NCBI RefSeq assembly: GCF_006716765.1
Contig: NZ_VFPO01000001.1
Span: 6,138,001 to 6,202,000 of the forward strand
Source: Actinomadura hallensis
Lineage (GTDB): Bacteria; Actinomycetota; Actinomycetes; Streptosporangiales; Streptosporangiaceae
Direction of reading: 5' to 3'
Length of the DNA stretch: 64,000 bases
The notes under the pieces are model-generated. The model did not search any database. It saw only the letters and a list, made by a program, of their open reading frames with translations, and was not told where the DNA came from. Below are positions 26,896 through 46,040 of the stretch, piece by piece. Position 1 is the first letter of the stretch, and every line of letters starts with the position of its first letter. Both the position numbers and the translations under genes were made by a program.

Positions 26896-27801
26896 CTAGT
26901 CAGCGGATTCGGACACGCTCGCGTGCATGTGCTTCACCAGCCGGGGACGCCACTGGTAGTACGCGTTGACCTTGCAGTACTCACCCTCCTTCGGCGAGGT
27001 GGCGAGGTAGACGACCTTGGGCTCGTCGACGCCGTACGGGATCTCCGTCAGGAAGTGCTCGATCTTCGGGTCCACGCGCTCGAGCAGCGACAGCGGCTCC
27101 CGTGTGATCGCGGAGTAGCAGAACCGCTGGATCTTCGGGGAGTCCCAGCTCAGGGTCGCGTAGAAGCCGAACGCCTGCCGGGCGAAGTTCAGCATCTGCT
27201 CGCTCGGTTCCGGCATCTCCATGTCTCGGAGCATCGACTTCACGGCCTCCGGCTTGAGGCATTCGTCCGCCTCACCGAAGTACACGTTCATCGTCTTGTG
27301 CTCGTAGTCCATCCCGATCAGGGTGACGTTCTCCGCCAGACCGTGGCGGGCGAAGAGGTCCATGTTCGCGGCCAGGCCGGTCGCCATGGACGGGATCTCG
27401 GCGAGGTCCGACAGCTTCTGCATGCTGTCGCCGGGGAAGCACGACCACGCCTTCTGGAAGCCGCCCACCACTCCGAAGTCGATGCCGTAGCTTTCGACGG
27501 GCAGCCGCTTCTCGATGTCCGCCAGCAGGTCGCCGACGGGGTGGTCCGTCCCTTCCAGGAGGCCCTTTGAGAGGGCCAGGGCATACGGGTCGACGTCGCC
27601 CGGGAGCATCATCATGTGGCAGTTGACCTCTCCGGCGTGACGCGCGTCCGTCGCCAGCCGGAAGAGGATCGCGGCCTTCGGGATCGCGGCCTGGAACGCG
27701 CTCAGGACCGGCCATACCTTGTCGCGCGAGCAGGGTACGTCCAGCAGGCCGGTCGTTTTCTCGATGGCCGAGTACAGGTTTTCCGCGGCTTCCCTGGACA
27801 T
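26896..27801 (-). CDS. Aromatic prenyltransferase, ABBA fold (NphB/CloQ family), copy 1
   Basis: A soluble 301-residue enzyme that attaches a prenyl group to an aromatic acceptor, here probably a naphthoquinone or naphthol. Family segments include LFRLATDARHAGEVNCHMMM, FGVVGGFQKAWSCFPGD, LAEIPSMATGLAANMDLFARHGL and IGMDYEHKTMNVYF, the last carrying the Lys/Tyr of the diphosphate shield. There is no DDxxD motif, as usual for this family. The ATG at 27801 has a GGAGG site. It is the last gene of the minus-strand block and is followed by a bidirectional terminator. It is paralogous to the second copy at 30172-31080, sharing for example RHAGE, VGGF and LAEIPSM. Confidence 0.92.
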   Translation of the reverse strand: MSREAAENLYSAIEKTTGLLDVPCSRDKVWPVLSAFQAAIPKAAILFRLATDARHAGEVNCHMMMLPGDVDPYALALSKGLLEGTDHPVGDLLADIEKRLPVESYGIDFGVVGGFQKAWSCFPGDSMQKLSDLAEIPSMATGLAANMDLFARHGLAENVTLIGMDYEHKTMNVYFGEADECLKPEAVKSMLRDMEMPEPSEQMLNFARQAFGFYATLSWDSPKIQRFCYSAITREPLSLLERVDPKIEHFLTEIPYGVDEPKVVYLATSPKEGEYCKVNAYYQWRPRLVKHMHASVSESAD

Positions 27802-28358: not shown

Positions 28359-28433
28359 GTGTCCTCCGGTTCTGCCGTTGCCGCTCGTCCGGCGGTGTTC
28401 GGCCGCCCGGCACGGGGCGGCCCCGCCATGGGG

Positions 28434-28509: not shown

Positions 28510-30066
28510 TCAGCGCCTGACCTGGCCCTTAATGTGCCGCTGCGCGAACTCGTAGGCCCGGTCGCCGAACTGCTTACCCCACTCCATGGAGGTCTCGACC
28601 GTGTTCCGGAAGTGCACTCCACCCCACACCCGGCTGATGGCGCACTCCCGGACGAACTCGGTCCAGGTGCCATAGTTCAGCTCGAAGTCCTTTGCGGGGA
28701 CGAGCCCCGGCTCGGTCAGCAGCGAGCCCGCCGGCACGGAGTGCTTCCACTCCAGGACGTCGTCCCCGAGGAAGCGCCGCGCCGCCTGCGCCTCGGCGGC
28801 GCAGAGCGTCGTGGAGCCCGACGGGTACTCGGGGTGGTCGCCCACGGGCAGGTAGCTGGCCCACTCGTTCGCGGGCATGTCGGAGACCGTCCCCTTGCCG
28901 ACGCCGCCCCAGGCGGTCACCTTCCGGTCGCCGTAGACGTGCCGGACCGCGCTGAACGGCCGGACGGCGTCGAACCTCCGCTTGTGGTACCAGGCGGCGA
29001 TCAGGTCGTCGAACTGCGCCACGGCGGTGGCGAAGTGCAGGTGGACCCAGTTGTCCAGGTCCAGGTCGTGGGCCCTGCCCGCGGCCATCGTCGCCTGGCC
29101 GATGCCGAGGAACTTGTTGTCGAAGAACTCCGCCTTGACCTTCTGCGCGTCGGTGAGCCCGGCCGACGCCGCCAGGATGTCGTCGACCGAGCGCTTGTAG
29201 TTGGCGCCGCGGAGGTGCACGGGCTCGGGGAGCCCGAACCGCGACGGGTCGCGGTAGGTGTGGGCCTTGACCCGCGCCAGCTGCGGAGTGACGAACCGCT
29301 GGACGACGAAGATGCCCTTGTCGCCGGGCCCTCCGCCGACCCGGCGGCGGTGCGGGTGGATCGCCGGCTGCCAGCGCGCGGGGTCGACCAGTTCGTAGGC
29401 CGTGTTCACCGGCTTGTAGCCGGTGTAGTCGTCGTAGGGCTGGCCGTTGTACTTGCGGCCCTCGTTCCCGAGGAAGTTCATCCCGTCCCGGCTCCGGGCC
29501 CGGACGGCGGAGTTGCCGGCGATGTTGCCGATCCCGACCGGGGTGGTGGGGTCCTCCGACTGGTCGGACGGGTCCAGGCCGATCAGCTTCATCACCTGCT
29601 CGACCGACGCCAGCCGCTCCGGGTTCGTCGCCTTGATCACCTTGTGGGTGGCGTGGATCGCGGCGATGTTCTTGTTCCGGTTGGTCTTGGACTCGCCGGC
29701 GGGCCGGCGGGGGATCCTGGAGTGCACGCCGACCGCGGTCGGGTGGTACGGGGCCAGCGCGTCGAACCACGACGTGGTCATCATGTCCGCGATCCAGATG
29801 ATCAGGGACGCGTCCATCGGACCGAACGCCAGCTCCCCCCCGTAGGTCGGGTCGCCTTGGGCGGCGATCAGGTCCCGGTGGAAGTTGCCGGTGTCGAAGT
29901 CGAAATCGATCTGCGGGGCGGCCGGCGCGGACGGCGCGGACGGACTGGCGGCGGCGACGCCGGTCCTGCCCAGGGTCGCCAGCGCGGCGGCCGAGGCCCC
30001 ACCGATCAGCAGTGACCTGCGCCCCATCGCGGAGGCCGAGCCGCCAGCACGTTCGGACCTTGTCAT
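28510..30066 (-). CDS. Vanadium-dependent haloperoxidase (NapH/Mcl type), exported by Tat
   Basis: A 518-residue enzyme that uses vanadate, H2O2 and halide for halogenation or halonium-driven cyclisation, as in napyradiomycin and merochlorin assembly. A twin-arginine signal is visible (MGRRSLLIGGASAAALATLG), so it probably acts outside the membrane. Vanadate ligands: KRRFDAVRP (about residues 361-369), PSGSTT (about 413-418) and RVWGGVHFRN (Arg about 478, His about 484). The PSGS form, with Ser where fungal and algal enzymes have His, is typical of Streptomyces meroterpenoid chloroperoxidases. The ATG has a GGAGT site. It lies between the two prenyltransferases, so it probably acts on their products. 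Confidence 0.93.
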   Translation of the reverse strand: MTRSERAGGSASAMGRRSLLIGGASAAALATLGRTGVAAASPSAPSAPAAPQIDFDFDTGNFHRDLIAAQGDPTYGGELAFGPMDASLIIWIADMMTTSWFDALAPYHPTAVGVHSRIPRRPAGESKTNRNKNIAAIHATHKVIKATNPERLASVEQVMKLIGLDPSDQSEDPTTPVGIGNIAGNSAVRARSRDGMNFLGNEGRKYNGQPYDDYTGYKPVNTAYELVDPARWQPAIHPHRRRVGGGPGDKGIFVVQRFVTPQLARVKAHTYRDPSRFGLPEPVHLRGANYKRSVDDILAASAGLTDAQKVKAEFFDNKFLGIGQATMAAGRAHDLDLDNWVHLHFATAVAQFDDLIAAWYHKRRFDAVRPFSAVRHVYGDRKVTAWGGVGKGTVSDMPANEWASYLPVGDHPEYPSGSTTLCAAEAQAARRFLGDDVLEWKHSVPAGSLLTEPGLVPAKDFELNYGTWTEFVRECAISRVWGGVHFRNTVETSMEWGKQFGDRAYEFAQRHIKGQVRR

Positions 30067-30171: not shown

Positions 30172-31080
30172 TTATTCGGGGTCCTCCACGAAAAGCTTCT
30201 GGAGCATCGCCGACAGCTGGTAGTACGAGCACACCTCGAGGAATTCGCCTTCGGGCGCCCATTTGACGGCGAAAAGGTTGACGCGGTCGCCGGAGTAGGT
30301 GCGCGGAATGCCCGTGGCGAACCGTTCGATGTGCGGTTCTATGCGCGCGGGGACCTCCGAAAGGTCCAGGCCGCGGCGCGGCGGAGGCGCGAGGGCGACC
30401 CGGAGGACGTCCGACGACTCGTAGCCCAGGGTGATGTTGGCCCGCAACGTCCTGTGGGCGAAGTCGAGGAGCTTCTCGTCCGGGTCCGGGAGGCCGACCT
30501 CCCGCAGCATCGCCCGGACGGCATCGGGCTCGGGCCGGGTATCGGGAGTGAACTGGAAGTACACGCTCACGTGGCGCTGCCGGTAGTTCACCCCGATCAT
30601 CGCCACCTTCTCCATGCCGTACCGGGTGAACAGGCCGACGTTGTCGGCGAGGGAACGCGGCATGGACGGGATCTCGGCGAGTTTCGCCACCTCCTGCAGG
30701 TCGTGCGGGAAGTGCGCGTAGAGCTTCCGGAAGCCGCCGACGACGCCGCAGTCGCAGAAGTGCTCGGCGACGGACGCCTGCGCCCGCACGTCCGAGAGCA
30801 GCGTGGCGGTGGGGTGGCCGGTCTCAACGACGAAGCCGTGCGACACCGCGTGGGCGTACGGGTCCTCGATCTCCGGAGGAACCGTGATGGCGTAGTTGAG
30901 CTCGCCGGCGTGACGCTCGTCGGCGTGCACGCTGAACACGATGCCGTTGCCTTCGGCGAAGGCGCCCCGGTAGCCGGTGAGGAGCGGCCGGACCTTGTCG
31001 CGGTCGAACGGCACGCCCATCATCCGGGAGGTTTCCTCGACGGCGTTGTAGAACTTCTCTTCCTCGGTCTCGCGGGACAT
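30172..31080 (-). CDS. Aromatic prenyltransferase, ABBA fold (NphB/CloQ family), copy 2
   Basis: A soluble 302-residue prenyltransferase paralogous to the enzyme at 26896-27801, sharing the N-terminal MSRE, RHAGELN, CGVVGGFRKLYAHFP, LAEIPSM and IGVNYRQRHVSVYF. The ATG at 31080 has a GGAGG site five bases upstream; longer upstream frames are spurious. It lies directly after the cis-prenyl synthase, so that enzyme's branched diphosphate may be its donor. Two paralogues in one cluster suggest two prenylation steps, different donors, or functional divergence. Confidence 0.92.
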   Translation of the reverse strand: MSRETEEEKFYNAVEETSRMMGVPFDRDKVRPLLTGYRGAFAEGNGIVFSVHADERHAGELNYAITVPPEIEDPYAHAVSHGFVVETGHPTATLLSDVRAQASVAEHFCDCGVVGGFRKLYAHFPHDLQEVAKLAEIPSMPRSLADNVGLFTRYGMEKVAMIGVNYRQRHVSVYFQFTPDTRPEPDAVRAMLREVGLPDPDEKLLDFAHRTLRANITLGYESSDVLRVALAPPPRRGLDLSEVPARIEPHIERFATGIPRTYSGDRVNLFAVKWAPEGEFLEVCSYYQLSAMLQKLFVEDPE

Positions 31081-31142
31081 CCTGGCCTCCAGGCGGTCGT
31101 CGTCGGTGAGCTGTCCCCCGGCGGAGCGGCGTTCGGCGCGGC

Positions 31143-31796
31143 TCAGGCGGGGTAGACGCCGTAGCGCCGGTCCCGCCCGCGGAGATCCTTGAGCGCGGCG
31201 TCGAAGTCGGCGCGGGTCATCTCGAGCAGCAGCGGCTGACAGAAGTGCATTTCGGTGAACGGGGACATCAGCGGGTAGAACGAGGACATCCGGATATGGC
31301 CGCCGGGGCGGATCAGATAGTCGATCGGCTCCGGGATGTACGCGTTCTCCGCCAGCAGTTCCTCGGTGAATTCGTCGACCTTCCCGTTGAACTTGTTGAA
31401 GATGTCGACCACTTCCCGGGCGAGGGACATTCCCAGGACGAAGTGGAGCGTGAAGTCCGAGTCCTTGGCGGACTCGTCCTGCAGCTCTTTCAGTGGAGTG
31501 AGGTAGCGTTCCGGGACGACGTCGAACGTCCCGGAGAGGCTGAAGTTGAGATCGGCGTGGCAGCGCCGCGCCACGTCGATGTACGAATTCATGGCGATGT
31601 CGACCACGTATTCGGAGCGGCTGTAGTTCGCGACGGAGGAGCACGCGATGTAGAGGGTGGAGAAGCCCTCGTCCCTGACCCAGCCGGTGAATTCGACGAG
31701 CTTGTCCGCCATCGCGGCATAGCTCTCGGCGATGGAGACGCCGTTCTTCAGGGACCAGCGGCGCATTCCGTCGGGCAGCAGCATCAAGTTGGTCAT
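31143..31796 (-). CDS. Cis-prenyl diphosphate synthase of the lavandulyl type (UPPS fold; CLDS/Mcl22-like)
   Basis: A 217-residue member of the undecaprenyl diphosphate synthase superfamily. The N-terminal LLPDGMRRW stands where UPPS has MDGNxRW, keeping the catalytic Asp (residue 9), and is followed by [24 protein letters not shown]. Shortened relatives with PDGMRRW-like text, such as cyclolavandulyl diphosphate synthase and merochlorin Mcl22, make branched (lavandulyl, isosesquilavandulyl) diphosphates by head-to-middle condensation. That activity is inferred here, and chain length cannot be read. The start has a GGAGAG site. It is the first gene of its block, some 400 nt behind two tandem cluster promoters. 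Confidence 0.85.
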
Positions 31797-32236: not shown

Positions 32237-32394
32237 GGCTTGAGTGGCCCGCGCTCCTACCGCCGCGGCGTGCGGCGTGCGCCGCTCACGACCGTCGCCG
32301 AATGTCGAGGCAGGGTGAAATGAATGCGGAGAAAATGAGAGTCGACCGCAGAAAGCGAGCCCATATGAGGGCGCACTCTAAAGGCGCCATCCTA

Positions 32395-32423
32395 GATATA
32401 GGATCTTCGCTCCGGGATGTCAA
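32395..32423 (-). promoter_or_regulatory. Cluster promoter, copy B
   Basis: Minus strand: -35 TTGACA (32418-32423), 17-nt spacer containing GGAGCGAAGATC, and -10 TATATC (32395-32400), followed by TAGG. It lies 187 bp upstream of copy A on the same strand, giving tandem promoters for the 31796 block. Confidence 0.8.
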
Positions 32424-33655
32424 GGGCTCCGCGGCGGCGAACTCCGGCGATCACTTGGGCATTACCGCCGTTCACGCGGCGTTCCCGGTGTTCACGGCCT
32501 CGCGGCCCGGTGCGGGGCGCGCCGGCGCCGGGCCCTCCGCGACGGCCGCGACCGCCGGCCGGGAAGCCCGGCGCGGAACCGGCCGGCGGAGGAGCCGCCC
32601 CTACCCGTTGCGGCGGCGGTCCCCGCCCGGACCTCCGTCCGGCCCGGCACACGCCTCGGTCACGACGGGCCCTGCCCGGGCGTCCTCAGTCGCTCTTCCG
32701 CTCCTCTCTCACGGCCCGAATCGGCACGGAGGAGCCCTCCGACAATGGTCCGGAGTTCGCATAGATCCACCTTGCCGTTGACCGGATCGCCGTGGGAGAG
32801 CCGGAGCGGCTTGAACGCCTGCCGACGCGATGGAACCGCTCCTGAATAATTCCCGGATGGCGCATGGCGTTCCTCACCACGGCGACCTGCCGAACAATGC
32901 CATAACGCGGGCGGTGCACCGCGGCAACTCGTTCTCAGATGGTCATCGGAGGCCGGATGAGGCCGTGTGGCACGGCCTGACATGAGGTAGGGATGACGAT
33001 ATAGCGCAGAGGGCCCGCACGGAGGCACAGGCCGGCCGGCGGACGCCGGCCGACCCGGGAAGCCGGCGCTCCCGGCCGGAGGGCGCGCCCGGGAGACGGT
33101 GGACACCCCGGCGACCGTGACACTTGCCGGTGGCACAGTCCGACGGTCGATTCGCGGGCGGATGCGCCGCGTCCGAACCGGGTGGCTCGCCGCGGATGCG
33201 GCGGATCGAGCCCCGGCCGGCCGCGTTCGACCGGCCGGTACGGTCGCCCACCGCACCTCACCCCGCTGTCAGCCCCATCCTCCGACGGTCGTCTCTCGGT
33301 CCGAGAAGACATCGCCGCGACGCTCCGGACCGTCCGAAAACTTGGATGCGGACCGGCGTCGCCACAGCGCAATAACCTTGGAATATGACAGTCTGTGATC
33401 AACTTATAGCCATGAATAACAGTTCATCTTTTCATCCTGGCCCCTATTGCCGATAATCACCGGACCTGATCACCGGTCGGCGAGAAGATCCGCACTCAGA
33501 CGTCAGTCGGCTCGCCCGGCAGTAGCGTTCATTAACCCTGTGTTCTCTCGTGTGGCTATTGACGGAGATGACCATTTTGAAGAGTATGCAGAGAGCATGG
33601 CTGGACTGCGCGCAGAACCGACGGCCCACCACGGACGAGGCTTTACGGGGAGAAC
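32424..33655. other. Non-coding stretch in the middle of the cluster, with possible gene relics and promoter region
   Basis: No credible intact gene. The left part is very GC-rich. The right part (33360-33655) is AT-richer and must hold the promoter of the zinc-ribbon gene; TATAG at about 33405 is a candidate -10. One minus-strand frame near 32740-32800 reads PLRLSHGDPVNGKVDL and vaguely recalls the N-terminus of SARP activators (LGPLRLSHDG), but the match is short and no downstream homology follows. Confidence 0.4.
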
Positions 33656-34294
33656 ATGAAGGGACACGTACTGTGTCAAGTTGGATCGTGCCAAAGACCG
33701 AGCGATAATCTTGGCAAGAAGGCACGTAGTGCCGGCGACGGCCGGCTCGTGTGTTCGGTATGCCTGGACCGGCTGGTGGGAGACATCCGAAGCCTGCCCA
33801 CACTGTACGACGACTGCATGAGCCAGACGGGCTCGGGGACCGTGCGCGTGATACGCAACCGCCCCCGCAAGAGCACCACCGCCGACCCGATGAGCGCCGC
33901 GGCGACCGAGGTTCGCACCGCAATTCGCAAAGTGCTGGCCTCCTGGGCCAGTCTCGTCGCCGACGAACGCCGGCTCCAACGCCCCCCGCGGGACATCCTG
34001 GAGCTTTCGCAATTCCTCTGCCGACACGCGGAGTGGCTCGCCGCGCATCCTGCGGCGGCCGAGATCGTGGACGAGATCGGCGAGCTGACGCGCACCGCGC
34101 GCCGGGTCGCCTACTCGCACGGCGGCAGCCGGGTGCCCGTCGGTTCCTGCCCCACCTGCAGCGGGGAACTGGTCGCGTACATGCGCCGCCGCGAGGATTC
34201 GCTGCCGGCGGAGATCGTGTGCGACACGGTGCCCGACCACAGGTGGCCCGCCACCCGATGGGCCACGCTCGCCCGCGCGATCCAAGAACGCTGA
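33656..34294 (+). CDS. Zinc-ribbon-containing protein, probable regulator of the cluster
   Basis: A 212-residue protein with Cys motifs at both ends. The N-terminal set is CQVGSC with CSVC about 24 residues later; the C-terminal set is CPTC, with a single Cys about 28 residues later that could complete a site (CDTVPDH). The middle is helical (AATEVRTAIRKVLASWASLV). The GGGGAGAAC site supports the ATG at 33656. Similar zinc-ribbon proteins paired with a small HTH protein occur in actinomycete secondary-metabolite loci and integrated elements. Here the partner HTH gene lies 585 bp downstream on the same strand. A regulatory role is inferred from position; no enzyme motif is seen. Confidence 0.7.
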   Translation: MKGHVLCQVGSCQRPSDNLGKKARSAGDGRLVCSVCLDRLVGDIRSLPTLYDDCMSQTGSGTVRVIRNRPRKSTTADPMSAAATEVRTAIRKVLASWASLVADERRLQRPPRDILELSQFLCRHAEWLAAHPAAAEIVDEIGELTRTARRVAYSHGGSRVPVGSCPTCSGELVAYMRRREDSLPAEIVCDTVPDHRWPATRWATLARAIQER

Positions 34295-34879
34295 CCGGGA
34301 GGAACACCTGACCGTACGGTCGGGGCCGTACACCCCCGACAGTACTGCTCCCCACCCCCTGCACGCCTGGTCCCGCTCCCCTCCCCCCGCACCTGCCCGT
34401 GCACGCCCGGGCCGCACCGCCGCCCACCTCCAAGCCCGTCCCGGCGCGATCGCAGGCGGCGGAACGCCGTACCGAGGTCTCCCGCACGTCATGCGGCACC
34501 GCGCGCCCCCCGCAGCCCCTCAGAGCCGTACGAGCCGACCCGACCGCCAACCCGCAGCCCGCGGCCGAGCAGCTCGATCGACCGCACGGTGGGCGTCGCC
34601 GTGCTCCCTTTCGCAACCGATCGTCCTCCGGCCGGTCTCCAGCCGTTCCGAACGGCTGGGCGACAGGTTCCAGAACACCCTGCTCTCGCCGCTCCCCCAT
34701 CGCACACATTCGCCGTCGACGACGCTCCGATGACCGGAACGCGTTCGCGATCGGCTCGTTTCCGACGCGATCGAGCAGCGCGTTTCCCGCCCCGCTGGTC
34801 GACCGTCAAGCATCTCGCAATGCTCCCGCCGGATCCACAAGGTCACTCTGCTCCGGCAGATGGTCATAACAGGAGGAAC
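34295..34879 (+). other. Non-coding gap between the zinc-ribbon and HTH genes
   Basis: This 585-bp GC-rich stretch contains only frames with atypical composition. In-frame extension of the small HTH gene upstream to 34589 is possible but has no ribosome site or homology. I see no repeat or strong hairpin in it. Confidence 0.4.
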
Positions 34880-35071
34880 ATGCTGGATCACGCAATCCAT
34901 AAGGTCGGCCTGACTGTTGATGACATCGCCGCCATTTGGCGCGTGCCGAAGGGCACCGTCTACCGCTACGCCCACCAGGCACAATGGCGGCGCTACACCC
35001 ACAACCGCCGCGTCTACTACCACCCGGACGACGTCATGGACACCTTCGACCCCCCGGCCCAAGACTCCTAG
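34880..35071 (+). CDS. Small helix-turn-helix (MerR/excisionase-like) DNA-binding protein
   Basis: A 63-residue protein: LTVDDIAAIWRVPKGTVYRYAHQAQWRR is a winged-helix/excisionase-type HTH, followed by RVYYHPDDVMDTF, the usual wing and end. A perfect AGGAGG lies 3 bp before the ATG at 34880. It resembles the small HTH partners of the zinc-ribbon protein upstream, and together they are candidates for control of the cluster promoters. Excisionase-like proteins also act in element excision, but no integrase is nearby. Confidence 0.8.
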   Translation: MLDHAIHKVGLTVDDIAAIWRVPKGTVYRYAHQAQWRRYTHNRRVYYHPDDVMDTFDPPAQDS

Positions 35072-35293
35072 TCGCGACCCTTTTCCTTGCGATACCGCTT
35101 CGTCCGATACCCACTTCCTCCGATGCCGCGCACGACCCGCCTCGCCCACCGAGACCATGGGCAAAAACCCGCCGGGGCCGGGCGCGGCCCGACCGGCCCC
35201 GGGTCACGAGCACCCGGGACCGGTGAGCGAAAAACCCCGGCAGCGACGCGGGAGGCCGCCCTGCCGGGGGTGTGTCCTTCGCGATGCGATTCC

Positions 35294-35355
35294 GCGAACG
35301 CTCCGCGCGACGATTCTCCGGAGAATTCCGGAGAATCGTCGCGCGGAGCGTTCGC
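35294..35355. terminator. Perfect 29-bp inverted repeat, bidirectional terminator
   Basis: Bases 35294-35322 pair perfectly with 35327-35355 around a 4-nt loop (GAAT), beginning GCGAACGCTCCGCGCGACGA. It lies between the HTH gene (plus) and ispG (minus), which converge, so it should end both transcripts. It is the longest perfect palindrome I found in the window. Confidence 0.85.
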
Positions 35356-35381: not shown

Positions 35382-36548
35382 CTAGCCCGGGACGGTGATG
35401 ACCTCCGGCTTCCCGGACGCCGTCTCGCCGTCGCCCGCCTCCTCGGCCAGGCGCATGGCCTCGTCGATGAGCGTCTCGACGATCTTCGATTCGGGGACGG
35501 TCGCGATGACCTTGCCCTTGACGAAGATCTGCCCCTTGCCGTTCCCGGACGCGACGCCCAGGTCGGCCTCGCGCGCCTCGCCGGGGCCATTGACGACGCA
35601 GCCCATCACCGCGACCCGCAGCGGCACCTCCAGCCCGTCCAGCCCGGCGGTGACCTCGTCGGCGAGCTTGTAGACGTCCACCTGGGCCCGGCCGCAGGAG
35701 GGGCACGACACGATCTCCAGGCCGCGTTTGCGCAGGCCGAGCGACTCCAGGATCGCGATCCCGACCTTGACCTCCTCGACCGGCGGCGCCGACAGCGACA
35801 CCCGGATCGTGTCGCCGATGCCCTCCGCCAGCAGAGCGCCGAACGCCACCGACGACTTCACCGTGCCCTGGAACTTCGGCCCCGCCTCGGTCACCCCGAG
35901 ATGCAGCGGGTAGTCGCACGCGGCTGCCAGCTTCCGGTACGCCGAGATCATCACCAGCGGATCGTGGTGCTTCACCGAGATCTTCAGGTCGCCGAAGCCG
36001 TGCTCCTCGAACAGCGAGCACTCCCACAGCGCCGACTCGACCAGCGCGTCGGCCGTGGCGCTGCCGTACTTGGCCAGCAGCCGCTTGTCCAGCGAGCCCG
36101 CGTTCACCCCGATCCGGATCGGGACCCGCGCCGCCTCCGCGGCCTTCGCGATCTCCGCGACCTTGTCGTCGAACGCCCTGATGTTGCCCGGGTTCACCCG
36201 GACGGCGGCGCACCCGGCGTCGATCGCCGCGAACACGTACTTGGGCTGGAAGTGGATGTCGGCGATCACCGGGATCTGCGACTTGCGGGCGATCTCCGGC
36301 AGGGCCTCGGCGTCGTCGGCCGAGGGCACCGCCACCCGCACGATCTGGCATCCGGACGCCGTCAGCTGCGCGATCTGCTGGAGGGTCGCATTCACGTCCG
36401 CCGTGACCGTGGTGGTCATCGACTGGACGCTCACCGGCGCCGTGCCGCCGACCTGCACGGCCCGGTCGTCGTGGCCCAGGGTCAGCTGTCTGCTCTTCCG
36501 CCGCGGGCTGAGCACTGGCGCCACCTTGGGCATACCGAGATCGACCAT
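35382..36548 (-). CDS. ispG: 4-hydroxy-3-methylbut-2-enyl-diphosphate synthase (IspG/GcpE)
   Basis: The sixth-step enzyme of the MEP pathway, converting MEcPP to HMBPP using a 4Fe-4S cluster. It is 388 residues, the usual size for the two-domain bacterial form. The N-terminal TIM barrel has [22 protein letters not shown] and [10 protein letters not shown]. The C-terminal cluster domain has [11 protein letters not shown] and [10 protein letters not shown] with the three Cys ligands and a Glu. It lies 62 bp after the IspH-DXS fusion in the operon and ends at the long palindrome. It is probably a cluster-dedicated second copy to raise isoprenoid supply. Confidence 0.95.
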
Positions 36549-36610: not shown

Positions 36611-39463
36611 TCATCGCGGGCTCGTCTCCGCACCCGTCCGGGCGGAGACGCGCAGGTCGGCGTGGTAGTCCCGCACCGTCCGGGCGATCTCCTCGCCGGA
36701 CAGGCCCATGTCGGCCAGGAGACCGGTCCGGTCGCCGTGCTCGATGAAGGCACGGGGAAGGCCGAGGTTGCGGACGGGGGTGCGCACGCCCTCGTCGGCG
36801 CAGGCCTGGGCGAGGCAAGCGCCGACGCCGCCGGTGCGGGAGCTGTCCTCGACGGTGACGACGAGCTGGTGCCGGGCAGCGAGGCCGGTCAGGGCGGGAT
36901 TGACCGGGATCACCCAGCGCGGATCGATGATGGTGACGCCGATGCCCTGGTCTTCCAGGATGTCGGCGGCCTGGAGGCACGCCTCGGCGAGCACCCCCGT
37001 GGAGACGATGAGCACGTCGAGGGAGAGCCCGCGGCTGCGGCGCAGCAGGTCCATGCCGTCGACGCGGACGACGGCGTCGATGTCCGGCCCGGCGGTGGCC
37101 TTCGGGAAGCGCAGGACGGTCGGCCCGTCGCTGACCTCCACGGCCTCCCGGAGGGTCTCGCGGAGCCGGGCGGGGTCGCGGGGCGCGGCGACCCGCACGC
37201 CGGGCACCACGCCGAGGATCGACATGTCCCACATGCCGTGGTGGCTGGCGCCGTCCGGGCCGGTGATCCCGGCGCGGTCCAGCACGAACGTCACCGGCAG
37301 GCGGTGCAGGGCGACGTCCATGACGACCTGGTCGAACGCCCGATTGAGGAACGTGGAGTAGACGGCGACGACGGGGTGCAGCCCGCCGAGGGCCAGCCCG
37401 GCCGCGGAACCGGCGGCGTGCTGTTCGGCGATGCCGACGTCGTACATGCGGTCGGGGAACCGTTCCGCGAACGCGGACAGCCCCGTGGGTCCGGGCATGG
37501 CGGCGGTGATGGCGACGACCTCGTCGTGGTCCTCGCCCACCGCGCACAGCTCGTCGGCGAAGATCTTCGTCCAGGAGGTGCCGGACGACGCGGGCGCCTT
37601 CCCGGTCTCCGGGTCGATCTTGCCGATGCCGTGCATGTGGTCGGCCTGGTCGTTCTCGGCGGGCGCGTAGCCCCGGCCCTTCCGGGTGACGACGTGCACG
37701 ACCACGGGACGGCCCATGGCGCGCGCCGCCTCCAGGGCCCGTTCGCAGGCGGACACGTCGTGCCCGTTGACGGGGCCGATGTAGCCGAAGCCCATGGTGG
37801 TGAAGAGGTTGTCCTCCGCCGCGCGGCCGTCGCGGGTGTAGACCTCCAGCCACGAGTCGGACGAGTTCCGCAGGTGCTGGAGGTGCCGGCCGATCCCGCC
37901 GATGGTCGGGGCGTAGGAGCGGCCGTTGTCGTTCAGCACGACGATCACCGGCCGGTCGGGGGCGCCGGCCAGGTTGTTGAGGCCCTCCCACGCCATGCCG
38001 CCGGTCAGCGCGCCGTCGCCGATCACCGCGACCACGGACCGGTCGGCGAGCCCGCGGCGCTGGTAGGCCTTGGCCAGGCCGTCCGCGTAGGAGAGCGCGG
38101 TCGAGGCGTGCGAGTTCTCCACCAGGTCGTGCACCGACTCGGCCTGCGACGGGTACCCGGACAGACCGCCGCGCTGGCGGAGCCGGTCGAAGCCGTCCGC
38201 CCGGCCGGTGAGCAGCTTGTGCACGTACGACTGGTGGCCGGTGTCGAAGATGAACTTGTCGTCGGGCGAGGCGAACACGCGGTGCAGCGCGATCATCAGC
38301 TCCACCACGCCGAGGTTGGGACCGAGGTGCCCGCCGGTGCGGGCCACGGCCCCCACCAGGAAATCGCGGATCTCCGCCGCCAGCGCGGGCAGTTCCTCCG
38401 CGGGCAGTTCCCGCAGATCAGCCGGGTCGCGGATGCCTTCCAGCAATGTCCTTGGTGGCCCTTCTCCGGGCCGCTCCGTTGCGGCCGCGGACGTGCGGGC
38501 CCGCGACGCGGACTGCGCCGTGCCCGGATGGTCCAGCTCGCGCGGCAGGGCGAAGTGCATCCCCTCCGTGACCGGCTCGATCTCCTGGACCTCGTCGTAT
38601 CCTCGTTCGCGCAACCAGGTCAGCACGTCCTGGACGAGTTCGTCGGGGACGGACGCGCCGCTCGTCAGCCCGACGGTCGTCACGCCGTCGAGCCACGACT
38701 CGTCGATCTCCTCGGCACAGTCCACGAGGTGGGCGGCGGTGCCGCACTCCCGTGCGACCTCGACCAGGCGGACGGAGTTGGACGAGTTCGCCGAGCCGAC
38801 GACGATGACCAGCTCGGAGGCCGCCGCGATCTCTTTCACCGCGACCTGGCGGTTCTGGGTGGCGTAGCAGATGTCGTCCGACGGCGGATCCATCAGGTTG
38901 GGGAACCGCCGGCGGAGGGCCGCGACCGTGGCGAGGGTCTCGTCCACCGACAAGGTGGTCTGCGACAGCCACACGACGCGGTCGGGGTCGCGCACCTGCA
39001 CGTTCTTCACATCGTCCGGTCCGTCGACCAGGTGGATGTGGTCCGGGGCCTCGCCCAGGGTGCCGATGACCTCTTCGTGGCCGTCGTGCCCGATCAGCAG
39101 GATGTCGTAGTCCGCCTCGGCGAAGCGGACGGCCTCCCGGTGGACCTTGGTGACGAGCGGGCACGTGGCGTCGATCGTCGTGAGGTTCTGGGCTCTGGCC
39201 TCCTCGTGCACGGACGGCGCCACCCCGTGCGCGGAGAACACGACGGTGGCGCCCTCGGGCACCTCCTCGGTCTCCTCGACGAAGATGACGCCGCGTTCCT
39301 CCAGGGACTTCACGACGAAGGTGTTGTGGACGATCTGCTTCCGCACGTAGACGGGGGGTCCGTACTTCTCCAGGCAGATCTCTACGGTCCGCACGGCCCG
39401 CTCCACGCCGGCGCAGGAACTGCGCGGCTTCGCGAGCAGGACGCGGCGATGGGAAAGCGCCAT
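36611..39463 (-). CDS. Bifunctional IspH-DXS fusion: HMBPP reductase and 1-deoxy-D-xylulose-5-phosphate synthase in one chain
   Basis: One uninterrupted 950-residue frame joins the last and first enzymes of the MEP pathway. Residues 1 to about 310 are complete IspH: Fe-S Cys17 ([12 protein letters not shown]), Cys101 ([11 protein letters not shown]) and Cys199 ([11 protein letters not shown]), His46, His79, His129 and [11 protein letters not shown] linker of about 30 residues rich in Ala/Ser/Arg follows. From about residue 338 a complete DXS runs to the end: [29 protein letters not shown] (His410), the TPP motif [16 protein letters not shown] (482-497) and [15 protein letters not shown]. IspH makes IPP/DMAPP; DXS condenses pyruvate with GAP. 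It lies 28 bp after the THN synthase and 62 bp before ispG. Confidence 0.95.
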
Positions 39464-39491: not shown

Positions 39492-40595
39492 TTAATGGAG
39501 GGAGGACGTCAGCTCATCCGGCTGAGCTCGTTCCATGTCCGCGGGGGTGTCCACGGTCCAGCGGCCGACCGCCATCTCGGCGGTGATCCCGGGACCGAAG
39601 CCCGCGATCACGCCGGTGTCGCCGGGCGTCATCTCGTCGTCCTCGAACAGCCTGCGCAGCGCGTCCAGCACGACCGCGCTGGCGATGTTGCCGTACTGGG
39701 TCAGCGTCGCCCAGCTGTAACGGAACATGTCCCGGTCGACGTCGAGGAACTTGGCGAGGTCGTCCAGGATGCGGGGGCCGCCGGCGTGGATGATGTAGAA
39801 GTCGAGGTTGCGGACGTCCCAGCCGTGGGCCGCCGCGAGCTCGCGCAGCACCGGGGCGAGGGGCTCCATCGTCCCGGGCACCCGGCGGTCGAGCTGGAAG
39901 TGGAAGCCGGTCTCCCGGACGGCGTAGGAGATCCATTCCTCGGTGCCGGGGATGAGGTACGACGAGTTGCGCTCCAGCGCGACGCCGAAGCCGCCGCTGC
40001 CCCGCACCACCGCCGCTCCGACGGCGTCGCCGAACAGCCCGTCCGACAGCAGCGCGCCGATGTTGTCGTCGCCCGGCTGGTAGCACAGTGAGCAAAGCTC
40101 GCACGACACGATCAGGACGTTGCTCTCGGGGTGGGCGGTGCAGAACTCCTGGGCGCGGTTGATCGCCGCGCCGCCCGCCGCGCAGCCGAGCTGGGCGATG
40201 GGGATCTGCCGGGTGTCGTACCGGAAGCCCATGTTGTTGATCAACCAGGCGGTCAGCGACGGCATCATGAAGCCCGTGCACGACACGTAGATGATGGCGT
40301 CGATGTCGCGCACCGTCACCGCGGCGTTCGCCAAGGCCTCCTCGATGACCTCGGGGCACCGCTTCTTGGACTCGGCCTCGTAGAGGCGGTTGCGCTCCTC
40401 GAAGCCGGGGTGGAGCAGGGCCTCCTCAATGGGCTGGACGATGTGCCGTTTCTTCACCCCGGTGTTCTGGATCAGGCGGAGCGCCAAGGGGAGCTGCGGT
40501 TTTCCCGCGTGCACCTTCTCGGCGAACTCCAGGGTGTCCTCCATGGTGACGACGTACTCCGGCACACGAATCGACGGCTTGCACAGCGTTGGCAT
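39492..40595 (-). CDS. Type III polyketide synthase, 1,3,6,8-tetrahydroxynaphthalene synthase (RppA-like)
   Basis: A 367-residue chalcone-synthase-fold enzyme that condenses five malonyl-CoA into THN, the naphthalene core. The catalytic triad falls at the RppA positions: Cys about 136 ([10 protein letters not shown]), His about 267 ([10 protein letters not shown]) and Asn about 301 (TQYGNIASA). [18 protein letters not shown] and the CoA-binding tail [10 protein letters not shown] are also present. It starts the aromatic branch of the pathway. It is in the operon directly before the IspH-DXS gene. Confidence 0.93.
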
Positions 40596-40869: not shown

Positions 40870-41937
40870 TCAGGCGGTCTTGGTCCCGGAGAGGATGGCC
40901 GGCACCGGGATGACGTCCTGCGGCAGTTCCGCGGGGTCCTTGGTGACCGTCCTGGTCACCTCGAAGCCGCTTTCCTCCAGCCAGCTCCGGTAGGTGGAGA
41001 GCTTCTGCGGCCCGCCCTGGCCCATGGTGCAGCCGATGAAGAAGGCGGGGAAGAAGTCGACGTTGAGGTTGTCGGTCTCCGTGACGTCCTCCGGATACAC
41101 GGGGACCAGGATGTTGACCTGCCCGCCGACCGGCAGCGACTTGTGGACGCCGTTCAGGATCTGGATGACGGCGTCCCTGTCGAACATGTCAAGGAAGTGC
41201 TTGATCAGAACGACGTTGTAGCCTTCGGGCACCCCGTCGAAGACGTTGCCGCCGATGAACGAGCAGTGCTCCGCCACGCCGTGCGCCCGGAAGTTCTCCA
41301 GGCACTCGGTCTCCTTCTCCGGCAGGTCGAAGGTCGTCACCCGCATGCCGGGGACGTGCTTCATCTTGTAGGTGTGCACGGCCCCGAGCCCGGTGTTCCC
41401 GGCGAGGTCGAGCACCTGCGCGCCGGACGGCATGTCGATGTTGGCGAAGAACCAGGGGTCGATGTTGGCCGTGACGGTGTCCATCAGCTTCGCCCACGCC
41501 TCGCGGAGGTCCCGGTGCTCGGCGACCGCGTCGTACAGGGTCCCGTCGGCGCCGTAGAGCTCCTTCAGCCCCACGAGCGTCCCGGTCCGGGCGCTCTCGG
41601 TCAGGTTGAACAGCTGCCGCAGCGCGACCACCTTGATCATGTTCATGTAGGCGAGCGCGCGCTTGAGGTCCCGTTCCGGGACGTCCGCGAGCGCGGCGAG
41701 GGAGTAGCCGCGGCCGTCGTCGTAGGCGACGAAGTGCTCCTTGACCAGCAGGAACAGGAGCTGCTCCACCGCGTCCGGCTTCACGCCGACCGCGTCGCCG
41801 AGCTCCGCGGCCGTCATCCCGGGCCGCTCCCGCAGCGCGTCGATGATGCCGAGTTCGAAGCAGGACAGCAGCGTCATGAACCGCGTGGGTCCCACCATGT
41901 ATTCGCGGAATCGCGCGAGCGTCGCTTCCGGTGTCAT
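40870..41937 (-). CDS. SAM-dependent methyltransferase, O-methyltransferase (family 2) fold
   Basis: A 355-residue methyltransferase. The N-terminal dimerisation/winged-helix domain (TLLSCFELGIIDALRERPGMTAAELG) is followed by a Rossmann SAM domain with AQVLDLAGNTG and VTTFDLPEKE. At the usual catalytic-His position the text is VVLIKHFLDMFDRD, so a His is present but shifted from the common LHDW form. In related naphthoquinone clusters such enzymes O- or C-methylate the flaviolin-type core; the site cannot be read here. AAAGGG before the ATG serves as a ribosome site. Confidence 0.85.
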   Translation of the reverse strand: MTPEATLARFREYMVGPTRFMTLLSCFELGIIDALRERPGMTAAELGDAVGVKPDAVEQLLFLLVKEHFVAYDDGRGYSLAALADVPERDLKRALAYMNMIKVVALRQLFNLTESARTGTLVGLKELYGADGTLYDAVAEHRDLREAWAKLMDTVTANIDPWFFANIDMPSGAQVLDLAGNTGLGAVHTYKMKHVPGMRVTTFDLPEKETECLENFRAHGVAEHCSFIGGNVFDGVPEGYNVVLIKHFLDMFDRDAVIQILNGVHKSLPVGGQVNILVPVYPEDVTETDNLNVDFFPAFFIGCTMGQGGPQKLSTYRSWLEESGFEVTRTVTKDPAELPQDVIPVPAILSGTKTA

Positions 41938-42007: not shown

Positions 42008-43594
42008 TCAGGCCCGGTCCTTCATCTCTTCCTTGAGCCGGCGGGACAGCGCGAGCCGCTGCACCTTGAGCGTCCCGGTGCGCGGCAGCTCGGCCCGGGG
42101 GATCTGGACCGGTTCGGCGAGCTGGGGGAGGCCGGCGACGGCCGCGCGCCAGCGGTCCCGGTCCAGCGGCGCGTCGTCGGTGGTGCAGACCACCGGCACC
42201 GGCTGGGACTTCACGCCGTGGACGACGACGAGCTCGCACAGCTCCTCCAGCTTGCCGAGCACCTGGTCCTCGACCTCCAGGGAGCTCCGCACCCCGCCGA
42301 TCATGTCGACCTCGCGGTCGAGCATGTGCAGGCAGCCGAACTTGGTGCGGTAGCCGACGTCCCCGGTGCGCCACCAGTCGCCGAACCGGTTCTCGTCGTA
42401 GCGGTCCTGCTCCGCGAAGTAGGTCTTGGCGAGGCCGCTCCAGGCGACCTCGATGTAGCCGGGGTTCTCCTCGGACACCGGCCGGCCGTTCCGGCTGACC
42501 AGGCGGATCTTCGCGCAGCCGAACGGCATCTGCCAGCCGACGCAGCGCCCGTTGGTCCGGTGTGCGGAGTGGCGGAAGTAGGCGCGGCCGACCGCCGGGC
42601 CGACCTCGCTCTGCCCGTAGATCTGGAAGAAGATCGCCCCCCGCCGCGTGGACGCCTTGAGGAGCCGGCTCATCGTCCGGGGGTGGATGGCGTCGAAGGT
42701 GCTGCTGAAGTACTTCACCGTGGAGAACGGCTTGCGCGGGTCGTCGGCCAGCGGCTCCCACTCCATGAGGGAGTTGGGCAACGCCTCCACGAAGCCGGGT
42801 CTGTGCTCCAGGAACGCCTCGGCGACCTTGTCGAGGGAGGGCTCGCGCAGGAGGACTACCGGCATCTCCTGCAGGAGCGCGAGGGACATCGCGGCGACCA
42901 TGCGGGAGTGCACGAACGGGATGTGGATCGCCACGGTCTCCTTGCGGCGCATCAGCGACAGGAGCCGCCACTGCGGCTTGAGCCGGACGGCCTGCGTGCG
43001 GGGCGTGTGCACGACGAGCTTGGGAATTCCGGTCGTGCCGGACGTGTGGGTGATGACGGCGGCGGCGTCGATCCGCCGGATCCGCGGCGGGACGTCCGGC
43101 GACCCGGCGAGGTCCTCGAGCGACTGCGCGCCGGGCCGGTGGCCGCGCACGAGCAGCGTCCGCTGGACGAGGTCGGCCAGCGGCAGCTCGCCGAGCACGT
43201 CGAGCTTGGGCTCGTCGGTGAGCAGGGTCGGCTGGTCGAGCCGCTTGAGCAGCGCGCCGACGTTGATGGCGTCCAGCGAGGGCGACAGCATCACCGGGAC
43301 GGCACCGATCCGGGACGTCGCGGCGCCGAGCAGCCAGGCGTCGGCGTTGGCGGTCTTGTAGACGACGACGTGCTCGTCGGGCCGGACGCCGACCGCCCAC
43401 AGCCGGGCCGCCAGGTCGCGGAGGTGGCCGGCGAAGTCGGTGACCGTCATGTGCCGCCCGGCCCCGGGCAGCACGTCCAGGTCGTGGTCGAGGTCGATCG
43501 GCGTCGCGGGGTTCATGGCCGCGGCCAGCTCCGGCAGCAGGCCGATGTGGAGACCGCGCTTCTGAACCGATTTGTAGGCGATGGAACGCTTCAT
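42008..43594 (-). CDS. AMP-forming adenylate/acyl-CoA ligase family protein
   Basis: A 528-residue ANL-superfamily enzyme that activates a substrate with ATP. The core motifs are intact: HTSGTTGIPKLVV (P-loop), IYGQSEVGPA (A5), WRTGDVGY (A7) and the C-terminal Lys in RTGTLKVQRLAL. There is no obvious carboxylic acid in a THN-derived pathway. Possible roles are activation of a side-chain acid, or, as in the CreM-type branch of this superfamily, ATP-dependent diazotisation of an aromatic amine made by the aminotransferase. No nitrite-forming CreD/CreE pair is visible, so that is speculative. Confidence 0.85.
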   Translation of the reverse strand: MKRSIAYKSVQKRGLHIGLLPELAAAMNPATPIDLDHDLDVLPGAGRHMTVTDFAGHLRDLAARLWAVGVRPDEHVVVYKTANADAWLLGAATSRIGAVPVMLSPSLDAINVGALLKRLDQPTLLTDEPKLDVLGELPLADLVQRTLLVRGHRPGAQSLEDLAGSPDVPPRIRRIDAAAVITHTSGTTGIPKLVVHTPRTQAVRLKPQWRLLSLMRRKETVAIHIPFVHSRMVAAMSLALLQEMPVVLLREPSLDKVAEAFLEHRPGFVEALPNSLMEWEPLADDPRKPFSTVKYFSSTFDAIHPRTMSRLLKASTRRGAIFFQIYGQSEVGPAVGRAYFRHSAHRTNGRCVGWQMPFGCAKIRLVSRNGRPVSEENPGYIEVAWSGLAKTYFAEQDRYDENRFGDWWRTGDVGYRTKFGCLHMLDREVDMIGGVRSSLEVEDQVLGKLEELCELVVVHGVKSQPVPVVCTTDDAPLDRDRWRAAVAGLPQLAEPVQIPRAELPRTGTLKVQRLALSRRLKEEMKDRA

Positions 43595-43719: not shown

Positions 43720-44328
43720 TCAGGCGGTGCGGGCGGCCTTGAGCGCGGCCGCGACGTCGACGGCGCGCCTGGCCTGGTAGGCGGCCGCCCGCAGCGGCAC
43801 GTCGCCCGGAGCGCCGTCGGCCGCCCGGTGGGACGTGCCGTAGGGGTTGCCCAGCTCGAACTGGACGGGGTCGGTGTAACCGGGAGGCACGATGACGCCG
43901 CCCCAGTGGTAGAACACGTTGCCCAGCGCGAGGATCGTGGACTCCTGCCCGCCGTGCGCGGTGCCGGTGGAGGTGAAGGCCGAGTACACCTTCCCGGCGA
44001 GCCTGCCCTCTCGCCACAGCCCGCCCGTCGTGTCGATGAACGCCTTGAGCTGCATGGACGGGTTCCCGAACCGGGTCGGGGTGCCGAACAGCACCACGTC
44101 GGCCCACTCCAGGTCGTCGAGAGCGGCCTCGGTGACGTCCGCGGCATCCTCGATGTGCTGGGCCCAGGCCGGGTTGGCGTCGATCGCGTGCTGCGGGGCC
44201 AGCTCGGGGACCCTGCGCAGCCGCACCTGCGCACCGGCCTTCTCCGCGCCCTCGGCCGCCGCCGAAGCCAGGGCGTGCACGGTGCCGGTCGAGCTGTAGT
44301 AGATGATCGCGGCGTTCACAGTCCGCAT
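43720..44328 (-). CDS. WrbA-like NAD(P)H:quinone oxidoreductase (flavodoxin fold)
   Basis: A 202-residue FMN protein that reduces quinones by two electrons. The FMN phosphate loop YYSSTGTVHALA and the isoalloxazine-contact region FGTPTRFGNPSMQLKAFIDTTGGLW match WrbA, as does STGTAHGGQESTIL. In this operon it probably keeps naphthoquinone intermediates in the hydroquinone state that aromatic prenyltransferases prefer, or protects the cell. It is 36 bp from the aminotransferase gene. Confidence 0.9.
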   Translation of the reverse strand: MRTVNAAIIYYSSTGTVHALASAAAEGAEKAGAQVRLRRVPELAPQHAIDANPAWAQHIEDAADVTEAALDDLEWADVVLFGTPTRFGNPSMQLKAFIDTTGGLWREGRLAGKVYSAFTSTGTAHGGQESTILALGNVFYHWGGVIVPPGYTDPVQFELGNPYGTSHRAADGAPGDVPLRAAAYQARRAVDVAAALKAARTA

Positions 44329-44364: not shown

Positions 44365-45522
44365 TCACCGCTCCGGACCCGCGTGGGCGCGCAGCGCGGC
44401 CCGCAGGGCTTCCGCGACCCGCTCGACCTGGCCGGGGGTCAGCTCGGCGTGCATGGGAATGGCGAGGCTGCGCCGGAAGAGGTCCGCCGAGACCGGGCAG
44501 GTTTGGTCGGTCTTGTAGGCAGGCTGCAGATGGCTCGCCCAGGTGCCGTGCCCGCAGCCGATGCCCTGGGCACGCAGGTCGGCGGCGACGGCGGCCCGGT
44601 CGACGCCCGGCTCCAGCGTCACCATGTACGACTGCCAGGCGTGGGTGCGGTCGGCCGGGACGTGCGGGAGCGTGATGAGCTCCTCGTCCTTGAGGAGCTC
44701 GTGGTACCGGGCGGCGACCGCGTTCCGGCGCTCCAGCAGCGCGCCGAGCCGCCCGAGCTGCACCTGGAGGATCGCGGCGCCGATGTCGGACAGCTTGTAG
44801 TTGAAGCCGATCTCGGCGAACTCGGGGATCGGCAGGCCGATCACCTTCGCCTGGTCGGCGATGCTGCCGATGCCGAAGGACGACCGCAGCCGCACGGTTC
44901 CGCCGAGTGCCGGGTCGGTGGTGAGCAGCGCGCCGCCCTCGCCGCTGGTGATGCCCTTGCGCCCGTGGAAGGACAGGCAGGCGACGGACGCCAGCGTCCC
45001 CGCCGGGCGGCCCCGGTAGGTCGCGCCGACCGCGCACGCGGCGTCCTCGATGAGGAACAGTCCGTGCCGGTCCGCGATCTCCTGGAGCTCCGCGTAGTCG
45101 GCGGGCAGGCCGACCGTGTCGACCGCGATGATGCCCACCGTCCGGGGCGTGACGAGGTCGGCCACGGCCTGCGGGGCGATGGTGCCGGTGTCGGCGCGGA
45201 CGTCGGCGAAGACGGGCACCGCGTCGACGTACCGCACCGCGTGGGCGGGGGCCGGGAACGTGAAGTCGGCGACGATGACTTCGTCGCCGGGCCCGGCGCC
45301 GAGCGCCAGCAGGCTCAGGTGCAGCGCGGCCGCGCAGCTGCTCAGCGCGACCGCGTCGGCGACCCCGAAGTGCTCGGCCAGCTCCCGTTCCAGGGCCTTG
45401 CCGCGGGGGCCCTGCCCGGCCGGCCAGTCGGACGCGAACACCTCCTTGACGGCCGCCAGTTCCCGCTCTCCCAGGCTCGCGTGCACCAGTGGGATCACGT
45501 CCATCGGGTCACCTCCCGTCAT
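44365..45522 (-). CDS. PLP aminotransferase, DegT/DnrJ/EryC1/StrS family, probable naphthoquinone aminotransferase
   Basis: A 385-residue aminotransferase of the sugar-aminotransferase family. The PLP Lys is in LSFHGRKGITSGEGG (about residue 187) and the PLP-contact Asp in LIEDAACAVGA. The start overlaps the cupin stop by ATGA, so translation is coupled. No sugar-nucleotide genes are present. Homologues beside THN synthase and a cupin oxygenase aminate mompain-type quinones to 8-amino-flaviolin in furaquinocin-type pathways. That reaction is the most likely one here and is inferred from context. Confidence 0.9.
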   Translation of the reverse strand: MTGGDPMDVIPLVHASLGERELAAVKEVFASDWPAGQGPRGKALERELAEHFGVADAVALSSCAAALHLSLLALGAGPGDEVIVADFTFPAPAHAVRYVDAVPVFADVRADTGTIAPQAVADLVTPRTVGIIAVDTVGLPADYAELQEIADRHGLFLIEDAACAVGATYRGRPAGTLASVACLSFHGRKGITSGEGGALLTTDPALGGTVRLRSSFGIGSIADQAKVIGLPIPEFAEIGFNYKLSDIGAAILQVQLGRLGALLERRNAVAARYHELLKDEELITLPHVPADRTHAWQSYMVTLEPGVDRAAVAADLRAQGIGCGHGTWASHLQPAYKTDQTCPVSADLFRRSLAIPMHAELTPGQVERVAEALRAALRAHAGPER

Positions 45523-46040
45523 GCCGGGCTTCCGTAGCGCAGCGGTGTGATCTGCGTGATGTCGTAGCGCTCGCGCATCCGCTCAACGGCCCCGGAGTCG
45601 ACGGTGCGGCCGCTGGAGAAGATCTCCGCGATCTCCTCGAAGTAGCGTTCGTGGTCGGGCGACGGGTAGCTCTGGAACAGCATCCGCACCGGCTCGCCGG
45701 TGGAGTTGGTGAACGCGTGCGGGCAGCCGGACGGGACGAACATGCAACTGCCCGGCCCCGCGCGGACGACCCCGTCCCCGTCGGGGGACTTCCAGTCCCG
45801 CCAGTCGTCCCCGGTTCGCTCGACCGGCTCGAACGCCAGCAGGTCGATCTCCCCCTCCAGGACGTAGAAGAACTCCTGCGCGTTCTGGTGGACGTGGGCT
45901 CCCACGTCGAACCCGGGCGGCACCACCACCTCGAACGTCGAGACGACGAAGCCGTCCGCCGCCGTGACCTTGAAAGTGATCTCCTGCGCCTTCGTGATGA
46001 GCTTTCGTCCCTCGCCTGGCGGGACAATGAGGCCGCTCAT
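45519..46040 (-). CDS. Cupin-domain monooxygenase (MomA-like), THN to flaviolin oxidation
   Basis: A 173-residue single-domain cupin. The metal-binding motif 1 is GAHVHQNAQEFFYVLEGEIDLL and motif 2 is FVPSGCPHAFTN. The family includes MomA, which oxidises THN to flaviolin and onwards to mompain in Streptomyces. It is the first gene of the eight-gene operon, about 355 nt downstream of cluster promoter C, and its stop overlaps the aminotransferase start. Quinone formation from the THN-synthase product is therefore its likely job. Confidence 0.85.
   Translation of the reverse strand: MSGLIVPPGEGRKLITKAQEITFKVTAADGFVVSTFEVVVPPGFDVGAHVHQNAQEFFYVLEGEIDLLAFEPVERTGDDWRDWKSPDGDGVVRAGPGSCMFVPSGCPHAFTNSTGEPVRMLFQSYPSPDHERYFEEIAEIFSSGRTVDSGAVERMRERYDITQITPLRYGSPA

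Follow-up and report, generated by a model that had tools for sequence, protein, structure and literature searches.

In a stretch of 64,000 nucleotides from Actinomadura hallensis (hereafter the window; positions 6,138,001 to 6,202,000 of contig NZ_VFPO01000001.1, assembly GCF_006716765.1), we found a single gene encoding both IspH and DXS, the last and the first enzymes of the methylerythritol phosphate (MEP) pathway. The IspH-DXS fusion is present in the sequence and both of its halves are full length. Comparison with close relatives indicated that it probably belongs to the precursor-supply block of a biosynthetic cluster, where a recent stop-codon loss would have joined two genes, both activities would have been kept at a 1:1 stoichiometry, and the protein would supply isopentenyl diphosphate (IPP) and dimethylallyl diphosphate (DMAPP) to a meroterpenoid.

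The fusion gene lies on the minus strand at 36611..39463, as indicated by the list of open reading frames (ORFs), Pfam and NCBIfam matches and motif positions. Read from 39463 to 36611, the frame contains 950 codons with no stop and encodes a protein of 101.6 kDa; the plus-strand reading of the same interval as a gene was rejected. The IspH (LytB) domain occupies residues 8-284 (38612..39442, minus strand) and matched LYTB (PF02401) with 306.8 bits against a cut-off of 24.5, covering profile positions 1-266 of 267. The protein passed both the NCBIfam IspH equivalog NF002189 (541 bits, cut-off 444) and the DXS equivalog TIGR00204 (573 bits, cut-off 466). The DXS domains span residues 341-932 (36668..38443, minus strand) in the expected order, with DXP_synthase_N from residue 341 (317.6 bits), Transket_pyr at 629-789 and Transketolase_C at 816-926, and the best relatives of this half in the Protein Data Bank (PDB) were DXS chains, including that of M. 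tuberculosis. The linker, delimited by alignment with relatives, corresponds to residues 312-338 (38450..38530, minus strand), and IspG (GcpE; 35382..36548, minus strand, assigned by Pfam and NCBIfam) is encoded 62 bases downstream of the fusion. An initial annotation made from the letters alone had described a continuous 950-residue frame with two full-length halves and intact motifs, a linker of about 30 residues and IspG directly downstream. Each of these points was borne out, on the minus strand and with a linker of about 27 residues.

The catalytic motifs of both enzymes were conserved. In the IspH half, C17, C101 and C199 align with the cysteines of solved IspH chains, and the alignment showed that the HN, SAHG, GHxGHxE, QTT and SSNS motifs are all kept; we take the first four to be the catalytic His, Glu and Thr motifs. 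The DXS half retains TGGHLGP, GDG (482-484) followed by NDN (511-513), IAEQHA (E680), H379 and H452. Presumably, GDG...N is the thiamine diphosphate motif, and E680, H379 and H452 are the catalytic Glu and His residues. The three Fe-S cysteines of IspH and the thiamine diphosphate motif and His of DXS, which had been named in the initial annotation, were thereby all located. An AlphaFold2 model of the monomer gave a predicted local distance difference test score (pLDDT) of at least 70 for 705 of 950 residues (mean 76.9; predicted template modelling score, pTM, 0.55), with residues 312-337 predicted to be disordered (pLDDT <50) between two folded parts. Foldseek indicated that the modelled DXS domains were misplaced compared with crystal structures (root-mean-square deviation ~18), and from the model we relied solely on the linker disorder and on both folds being present.

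In the nearest four relatives found, ispH and dxs lie side by side as two genes. These relatives are A. livida (G047, loci L004/L037), Actinomadura sp. 6K520 (G004, loci L005/L036), G046 (locus L006) and G045 (locus L007); their ispH stop is TAG, TAG, TGA and TAG, respectively, and all have a ribosome-binding site and a dxs ATG. The A. livida (NZ_BMRO01000006) and 6K520 (NZ_SMLC01000085) blocks carry the same genes as the window, in the same order and orientation and with the same neighbours. Identity to the IspH and DXS halves was 93 and 91% in A. livida, 94 and 92% in 6K520. Unlike in the window, ispH and dxs are two genes in these blocks, with a stop, a Shine-Dalgarno (SD) sequence and an ATG.

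All three of these signals are altered in the window (minus strand throughout). The former ispH stop (38504..38506) reads TCG (Ser320) where A. livida and 6K520 have TAG; the former dxs start (38450..38452) reads AGG (Arg338) where the four relatives have ATG; and the former dxs ribosome-binding site (approximately 38457..38467) reads AAGGGC, compared with AAAGGA in three relatives and GAGGAG in G045. The junction equals that of A. livida in length, differs from it at 14 of 96 bases and is in frame, the A. livida junction being open save for its TAG. What used to be the ispH tail, its stop, the 51-base spacer and the dxs start codon now makes up the linker. As a result, two pathway enzymes share one uninterrupted frame, the second without its own original start, although a residual TTG start is possible. 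Collectively, these comparisons suggested that the fusion arose by a recent stop loss joining neighbouring ispH and dxs genes. In the simplest order of events, the stop would have been lost first, by one base change, and the start and ribosome site would have changed afterwards, because start loss before the fusion would silence dxs. The frame of the dxs part now begins at the ispH start and runs across the former 51-base spacer.

We found the fused architecture in one genome. Among 65 genomes of the genus (match limit E <= 1e-160), a DXS of this type was present in eight, A. hallensis included, and was fused in one of the eight. Searches with the DXS half were extended to the family (298 genomes, 39 matched, 1e-175), the order (345, 48 matched, 1e-190), the class (394, 18 matched, 1e-200) and the phylum (396, five matched, 1e-200); these sets overlap and include the A. 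hallensis genome. From the named genome collection, the best 80 of 483 relatives' loci were used. In the 171 loci, 122 different dxs starts were counted, and 25 distinct ispH/dxs pairs lay side by side on one strand with a gap of -150 to 600 bases; 24 of these pairs are separate and one is fused. No second IspH-DXS fusion was found from genus to phylum in the sampled Actinomycetota genomes at these E limits, which exclude distant DXS proteins, and the reading of the fusion as a conserved architecture was rejected. Some DXS matches sit in open frames of 867-1176 residues; these were rejected as fusions, since wherever an IspH lies upstream in the locus its frame differs, a stop intervenes or the distance is too great. 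Family and order matches whose locus was not examined were rejected as well, their open frames (<=741 residues) being too short. In the plasmid collection, 489 records matched, but in none of them was 80% of the query covered at a single place. The initial annotation had proposed searching for IspH-DXS chimeras and mapping their context; no further chimera emerged from the searches described here. It also knew of no characterised fusion of this kind; in agreement with this, our searches of the open-licence literature yielded no description of an IspH-DXS fusion. To date, the fusion is a variant, seen in a single genome, of an ispH-dxs-ispG arrangement that recurs.

The ispH-dxs-ispG block is a second copy in the genome, which is a single contig of 6.70 Mb (the window being C1:6138001-6202000). 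Further IspH, DXS and IspG genes were found at C1:1390056, C1:2193600 and C1:4621409, and HMG-CoA reductase had no match in the genome. Two further DXP_synthase_N matches in the genome, weak at 27.8 and 23.0 bits, were attributed to other thiamine diphosphate enzymes. In a tree of 52 IspH sequences, the IspH half and the four relatives formed one clade (five rows, support 100/99). Together with the genus's 23 housekeeping IspH rows, this clade made up a group of 28 rows (100/99), whereas a different group (100/99) held 18 rows from other loci in which ispH adjoins dxs. The ispH of the Actinomadura block therefore seems to derive from the genus's own housekeeping line, despite sharing its gene order with other loci. 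Against this origin, branching within the 28 rows is poorly supported (88/83 and below), and the clade may either lie inside the housekeeping rows or be their sister; two label changes were counted, of which starred branches force one, and a long-branch warning applies. Many actinomycete loci share the ispH-dxs-ispG order, with at least two kinds of IspH (L003 and L004-L007 versus L010, L039, L041 and L119-L156). With inner support that is weak, the tree suggests that the same order was assembled more than once.

We propose that a single chain of ~102 kDa is made, within which two enzymes would fold and stay active, connected by a flexible tether. DXS would dimerise as usual, giving an IspH2-DXS2 particle. 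The fusion would play the role of the ancestral separate pair, providing extra DXS (flux control) and IspH beside the adjoining IspG, and the raised IPP/DMAPP would feed, at a fixed 1:1 ratio of the two enzymes, two aromatic prenyltransferases and a cis-prenyltransferase of the cluster. Neither channelling nor an allosteric link between the halves would be necessary, and direct channelling is not expected because the DXS product and the IspH substrate are several pathway steps apart.

The altered stop, start and ribosome site, the conserved motifs, the further gene copies, the lack of an HMG-CoA reductase match, the synteny with A. livida and 6K520 and the predicted linker disorder speak for this proposal. 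Other points weigh against it. The structural model is middling, given its pTM and the misplaced DXS domains, and is uninformative on assembly; the tail created by the stop loss could lower either activity; and some free DXS could still be started from a TTG at codon 340. The selection analysis, on the whole, is in keeping with the proposal. The ratio of non-synonymous to synonymous rates (dN/dS) between the window and A. livida was 0.118 for IspH, 0.237 for DXS and 0.141 for IspG, compared with 0.095, 0.238 and 0.127 between the unfused A. livida and 6K520 genes; these ratios do not separate selection after the fusion from that before it. When private changes were counted without outgroups, the window IspH had 15 amino-acid and 36 silent changes against 2 and 22 in the two relatives together (Fisher p 0.07), an excess which could reflect slight relaxation; for DXS the counts were 29 and 53 in the window compared with 24 and 40 in the two relatives (p 0.86). 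Once changes were polarised with G046 and G045, the IspH excess was gone: the window branch carried 4 amino-acid and 20 silent changes in its IspH part, and 16 and 32, respectively, in its DXS part, and neither part differed from the other branches (p 0.72 for IspH and 0.71 for DXS, Fisher test). The counts thus give no firm sign of decay, the hint in IspH not surviving polarisation.

An unlikely alternative is that the stop loss was a neutral accident tolerated thanks to the housekeeping copies; either half, or both, may then be impaired, with the cluster possibly heading for decay. The second copies of IspH, DXS and IspG, the occurrence of the stop loss in a single genome and the unpolarised IspH excess are all in keeping with such an accident. 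However, both halves are full length with intact motifs, the block genes can be aligned with their counterparts in the relatives along their length, dN/dS is low and the polarised counts contain no excess. A neutral origin followed by retained function is compatible with the proposal of a working, precursor-supplying fusion.

It is distinctly unlikely that the fusion is a newborn bifunctional enzyme kept for a changed flux control, whether through fixed stoichiometry, a fate shared with Fe-S assembly or an altered inhibition by IPP/DMAPP. Regulatory coupling between the halves, an idea raised in the initial annotation, is conceivable, and the reading in which the entry-exit fusion was selected for regulation, for example with local IPP/DMAPP from IspH tuning DXS or with DXS tied to Fe-S status, appears quite improbable. 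The fusion does unite exactly the pathway entry and exit enzymes, and IspDF fusions likewise join non-consecutive steps according to the part of a review available to us (PMC13001223). Nevertheless, adjacency alone explains the IspH-DXS fusion, because 24 of the 25 distinct ispH/dxs pairs are unfused neighbours, and the fusion occurs in one genome only. Small products would diffuse fast, and the tether would give little local rise in their concentration. In a study of poplar DXS, two alanines are reported to contact isopentenyl diphosphate (IDP in that work; PMC4993486). Mapped from the primer letters given there onto motif positions, they correspond to A485 (GDGA) and A655 (AAM) of the fusion; because both are present in the DXS half, there is no pointer to altered feedback in the fusion.

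A further alternative, which we regard as highly improbable, is that the gene still gives two proteins functionally, free DXS arising from an internal start at codon 340 or from proteolysis of the linker, which is predicted to be disordered. The likeliest residual start for free DXS is the TTG at codon 340 (38444..38446, minus strand), directly behind the lost ATG and with the SD-like stretch GGAGAAGGG ~12 bases upstream; its SD duplex energy of -8.8 equals that of the G045 dxs ATG. However, the spacing is long, the codon is not ATG, the other three relatives reach -9.5 to -10.0 before an ATG, and -8.8 is not distinctive, since 500 randomly chosen window positions have a 10% quantile close to it (-9.1). 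At codon 302 there is an ATG, but the GGAGGGG that directly abuts it was judged too close for a start. Finally, a sequencing or assembly error concealing two separate genes is hardly credible: it would need at least two independent wrong bases, falling precisely on the stop and on the start, in a junction with 14 differences from A. livida; a single-base error was rejected as the cause, given that the relatives differ from the window at all three signals, the stop, the start and the ribosome site; and the assembly is a single contig, 99.89% complete.

The genes surrounding the fusion, all on the minus strand, belong to biosynthetic families. Upstream, an RppA-like type III polyketide synthase (PKS; 39492..40595; Chal_sti_synt_C, FAE1_CUT1_RppA) ends 28 bases before the fusion start and is preceded by an S-adenosylmethionine methyltransferase (40870..41937; Methyltransf_2), an AMP-binding enzyme (42008..43594) whose third-best NCBIfam match is a diazotase (AvaA6), far below cut-off, a WrbA-type quinone oxidoreductase (43720..44328) and a DegT/DnrJ aminotransferase (44365..45522), both assigned by Pfam and NCBIfam, and a cupin protein (45519..46040), the first of the genes found in common with A. 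livida and 6K520. From the cupin gene through the aminotransferase, WrbA, AMP-ligase, methyltransferase, type III PKS, ispH and dxs to ispG, identity is 88-96% per gene in these two relatives. Beyond ispG, the window encodes a cis-prenyltransferase resembling undecaprenyl pyrophosphate synthase (31143..31796; Pfam, NCBIfam), an ABBA aromatic prenyltransferase (30172..31155; PTase_Orf2), a vanadium-dependent haloperoxidase-like protein (28510..30066; VCPO_2nd) and a second ABBA prenyltransferase (26896..27801, likely start 27801). A 505-residue reading of the last gene (26896-28413) was rejected, its first 200 codons overlapping a conserved TetR_C-like gene in another frame.

Further on in A. 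livida, homologues of the ABBA prenyltransferase, the cis-prenyltransferase and the VCPO protein are 36-62% identical to those of the window; the 6K520 contig stops 2.7 kb past ispG. In A. livida L037 (16656-21827), two VCPO and two ABBA prenyltransferase homologues are 36-59% identical, and the block genes 88-94%. These values suggest that the tailoring part was exchanged, or diverged faster than the block, between A. livida and the window. Directly before an ABBA prenyltransferase gene, a 139-residue gene (27939-28358, minus strand) matches the ligand-binding C-terminal domain of TetR but no DNA-binding domain; similar TetR_C-like genes occur in G046 (L034, 85-504) and G045 (L035). The ~3 kb between ispG and the cis-prenyltransferase (32000-35350) have a low coding signal and contain, on the plus strand, a 212-residue ORF without Pfam match (33656-34294) and a helix-turn-helix ORF (34589-35071); this region is possibly the remnant of a mobile element. 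Elsewhere in the window, a 697-residue frame (14855-16948, minus strand) combines a weak N-terminal match of major facilitator superfamily (MFS) type with a full thymidylate kinase match at 481-668.

The fusion offers a clean example of neighbouring genes becoming a bifunctional enzyme, each difference being visible against four relatives with separate genes. If both activities are retained, it would be a ready-made IspH-DXS construct beside IspG for raising IPP/DMAPP supply, and would allow a direct test of whether tethering DXS alters feedback control. We found no description of a natural DXS-IspH design in the open literature.

Assigned from domains alone, the type III PKS, prenyltransferase, methyltransferase, aminotransferase and AMP-ligase-like families make the cluster resemble the naphthoquinone meroterpenoid type, with a product that would derive from tetrahydroxynaphthalene (THN). 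The furaquinocin, napyradiomycin, naphterpin and merochlorin clusters presumably share with the window a type III PKS, an aminotransferase, an AMP-ligase-like gene, an ABBA prenyltransferase and a VCPO-like protein; the likeness is one of family descriptions and not gene by gene. The accessible part of PMC12670698 names aminoflaviolin, diazo and C-methyltransferase genes in such clusters and describes the 8-aminoflaviolin and diazo-forming genes as conserved. In the parts consulted of PMC6902898, PMC9814573, PMC12814520 and PMC12860625, we found no mention of MEP genes inside them. Where these clusters carry their own precursor supply, it is the mevalonate pathway, which flanks them in bacteria that have it and is not always present, as far as described in the part seen of PMC4650096; the window duplicates MEP enzymes instead.

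Natural fusions involving the same enzymes or the same pathway provide a second comparison. In the IspH-ribosomal protein S1 fusion (NF000907), IspH is also the N-terminal part of a natural fusion, but its partner is no pathway enzyme, and the window protein reached 220 bits against a cut-off of 624, through its IspH part only. IspDF, like the fusion described here, is a natural joining of two non-consecutive MEP enzymes. It differs in the enzymes joined and in being called common in the portion of the review consulted (PMC13001223), whereas IspH-DXS comes from one genome here. Fused non-consecutive MEP enzymes thus appear to be a known kind, of which the IspH-DXS combination, found in one genome, would be a new member.
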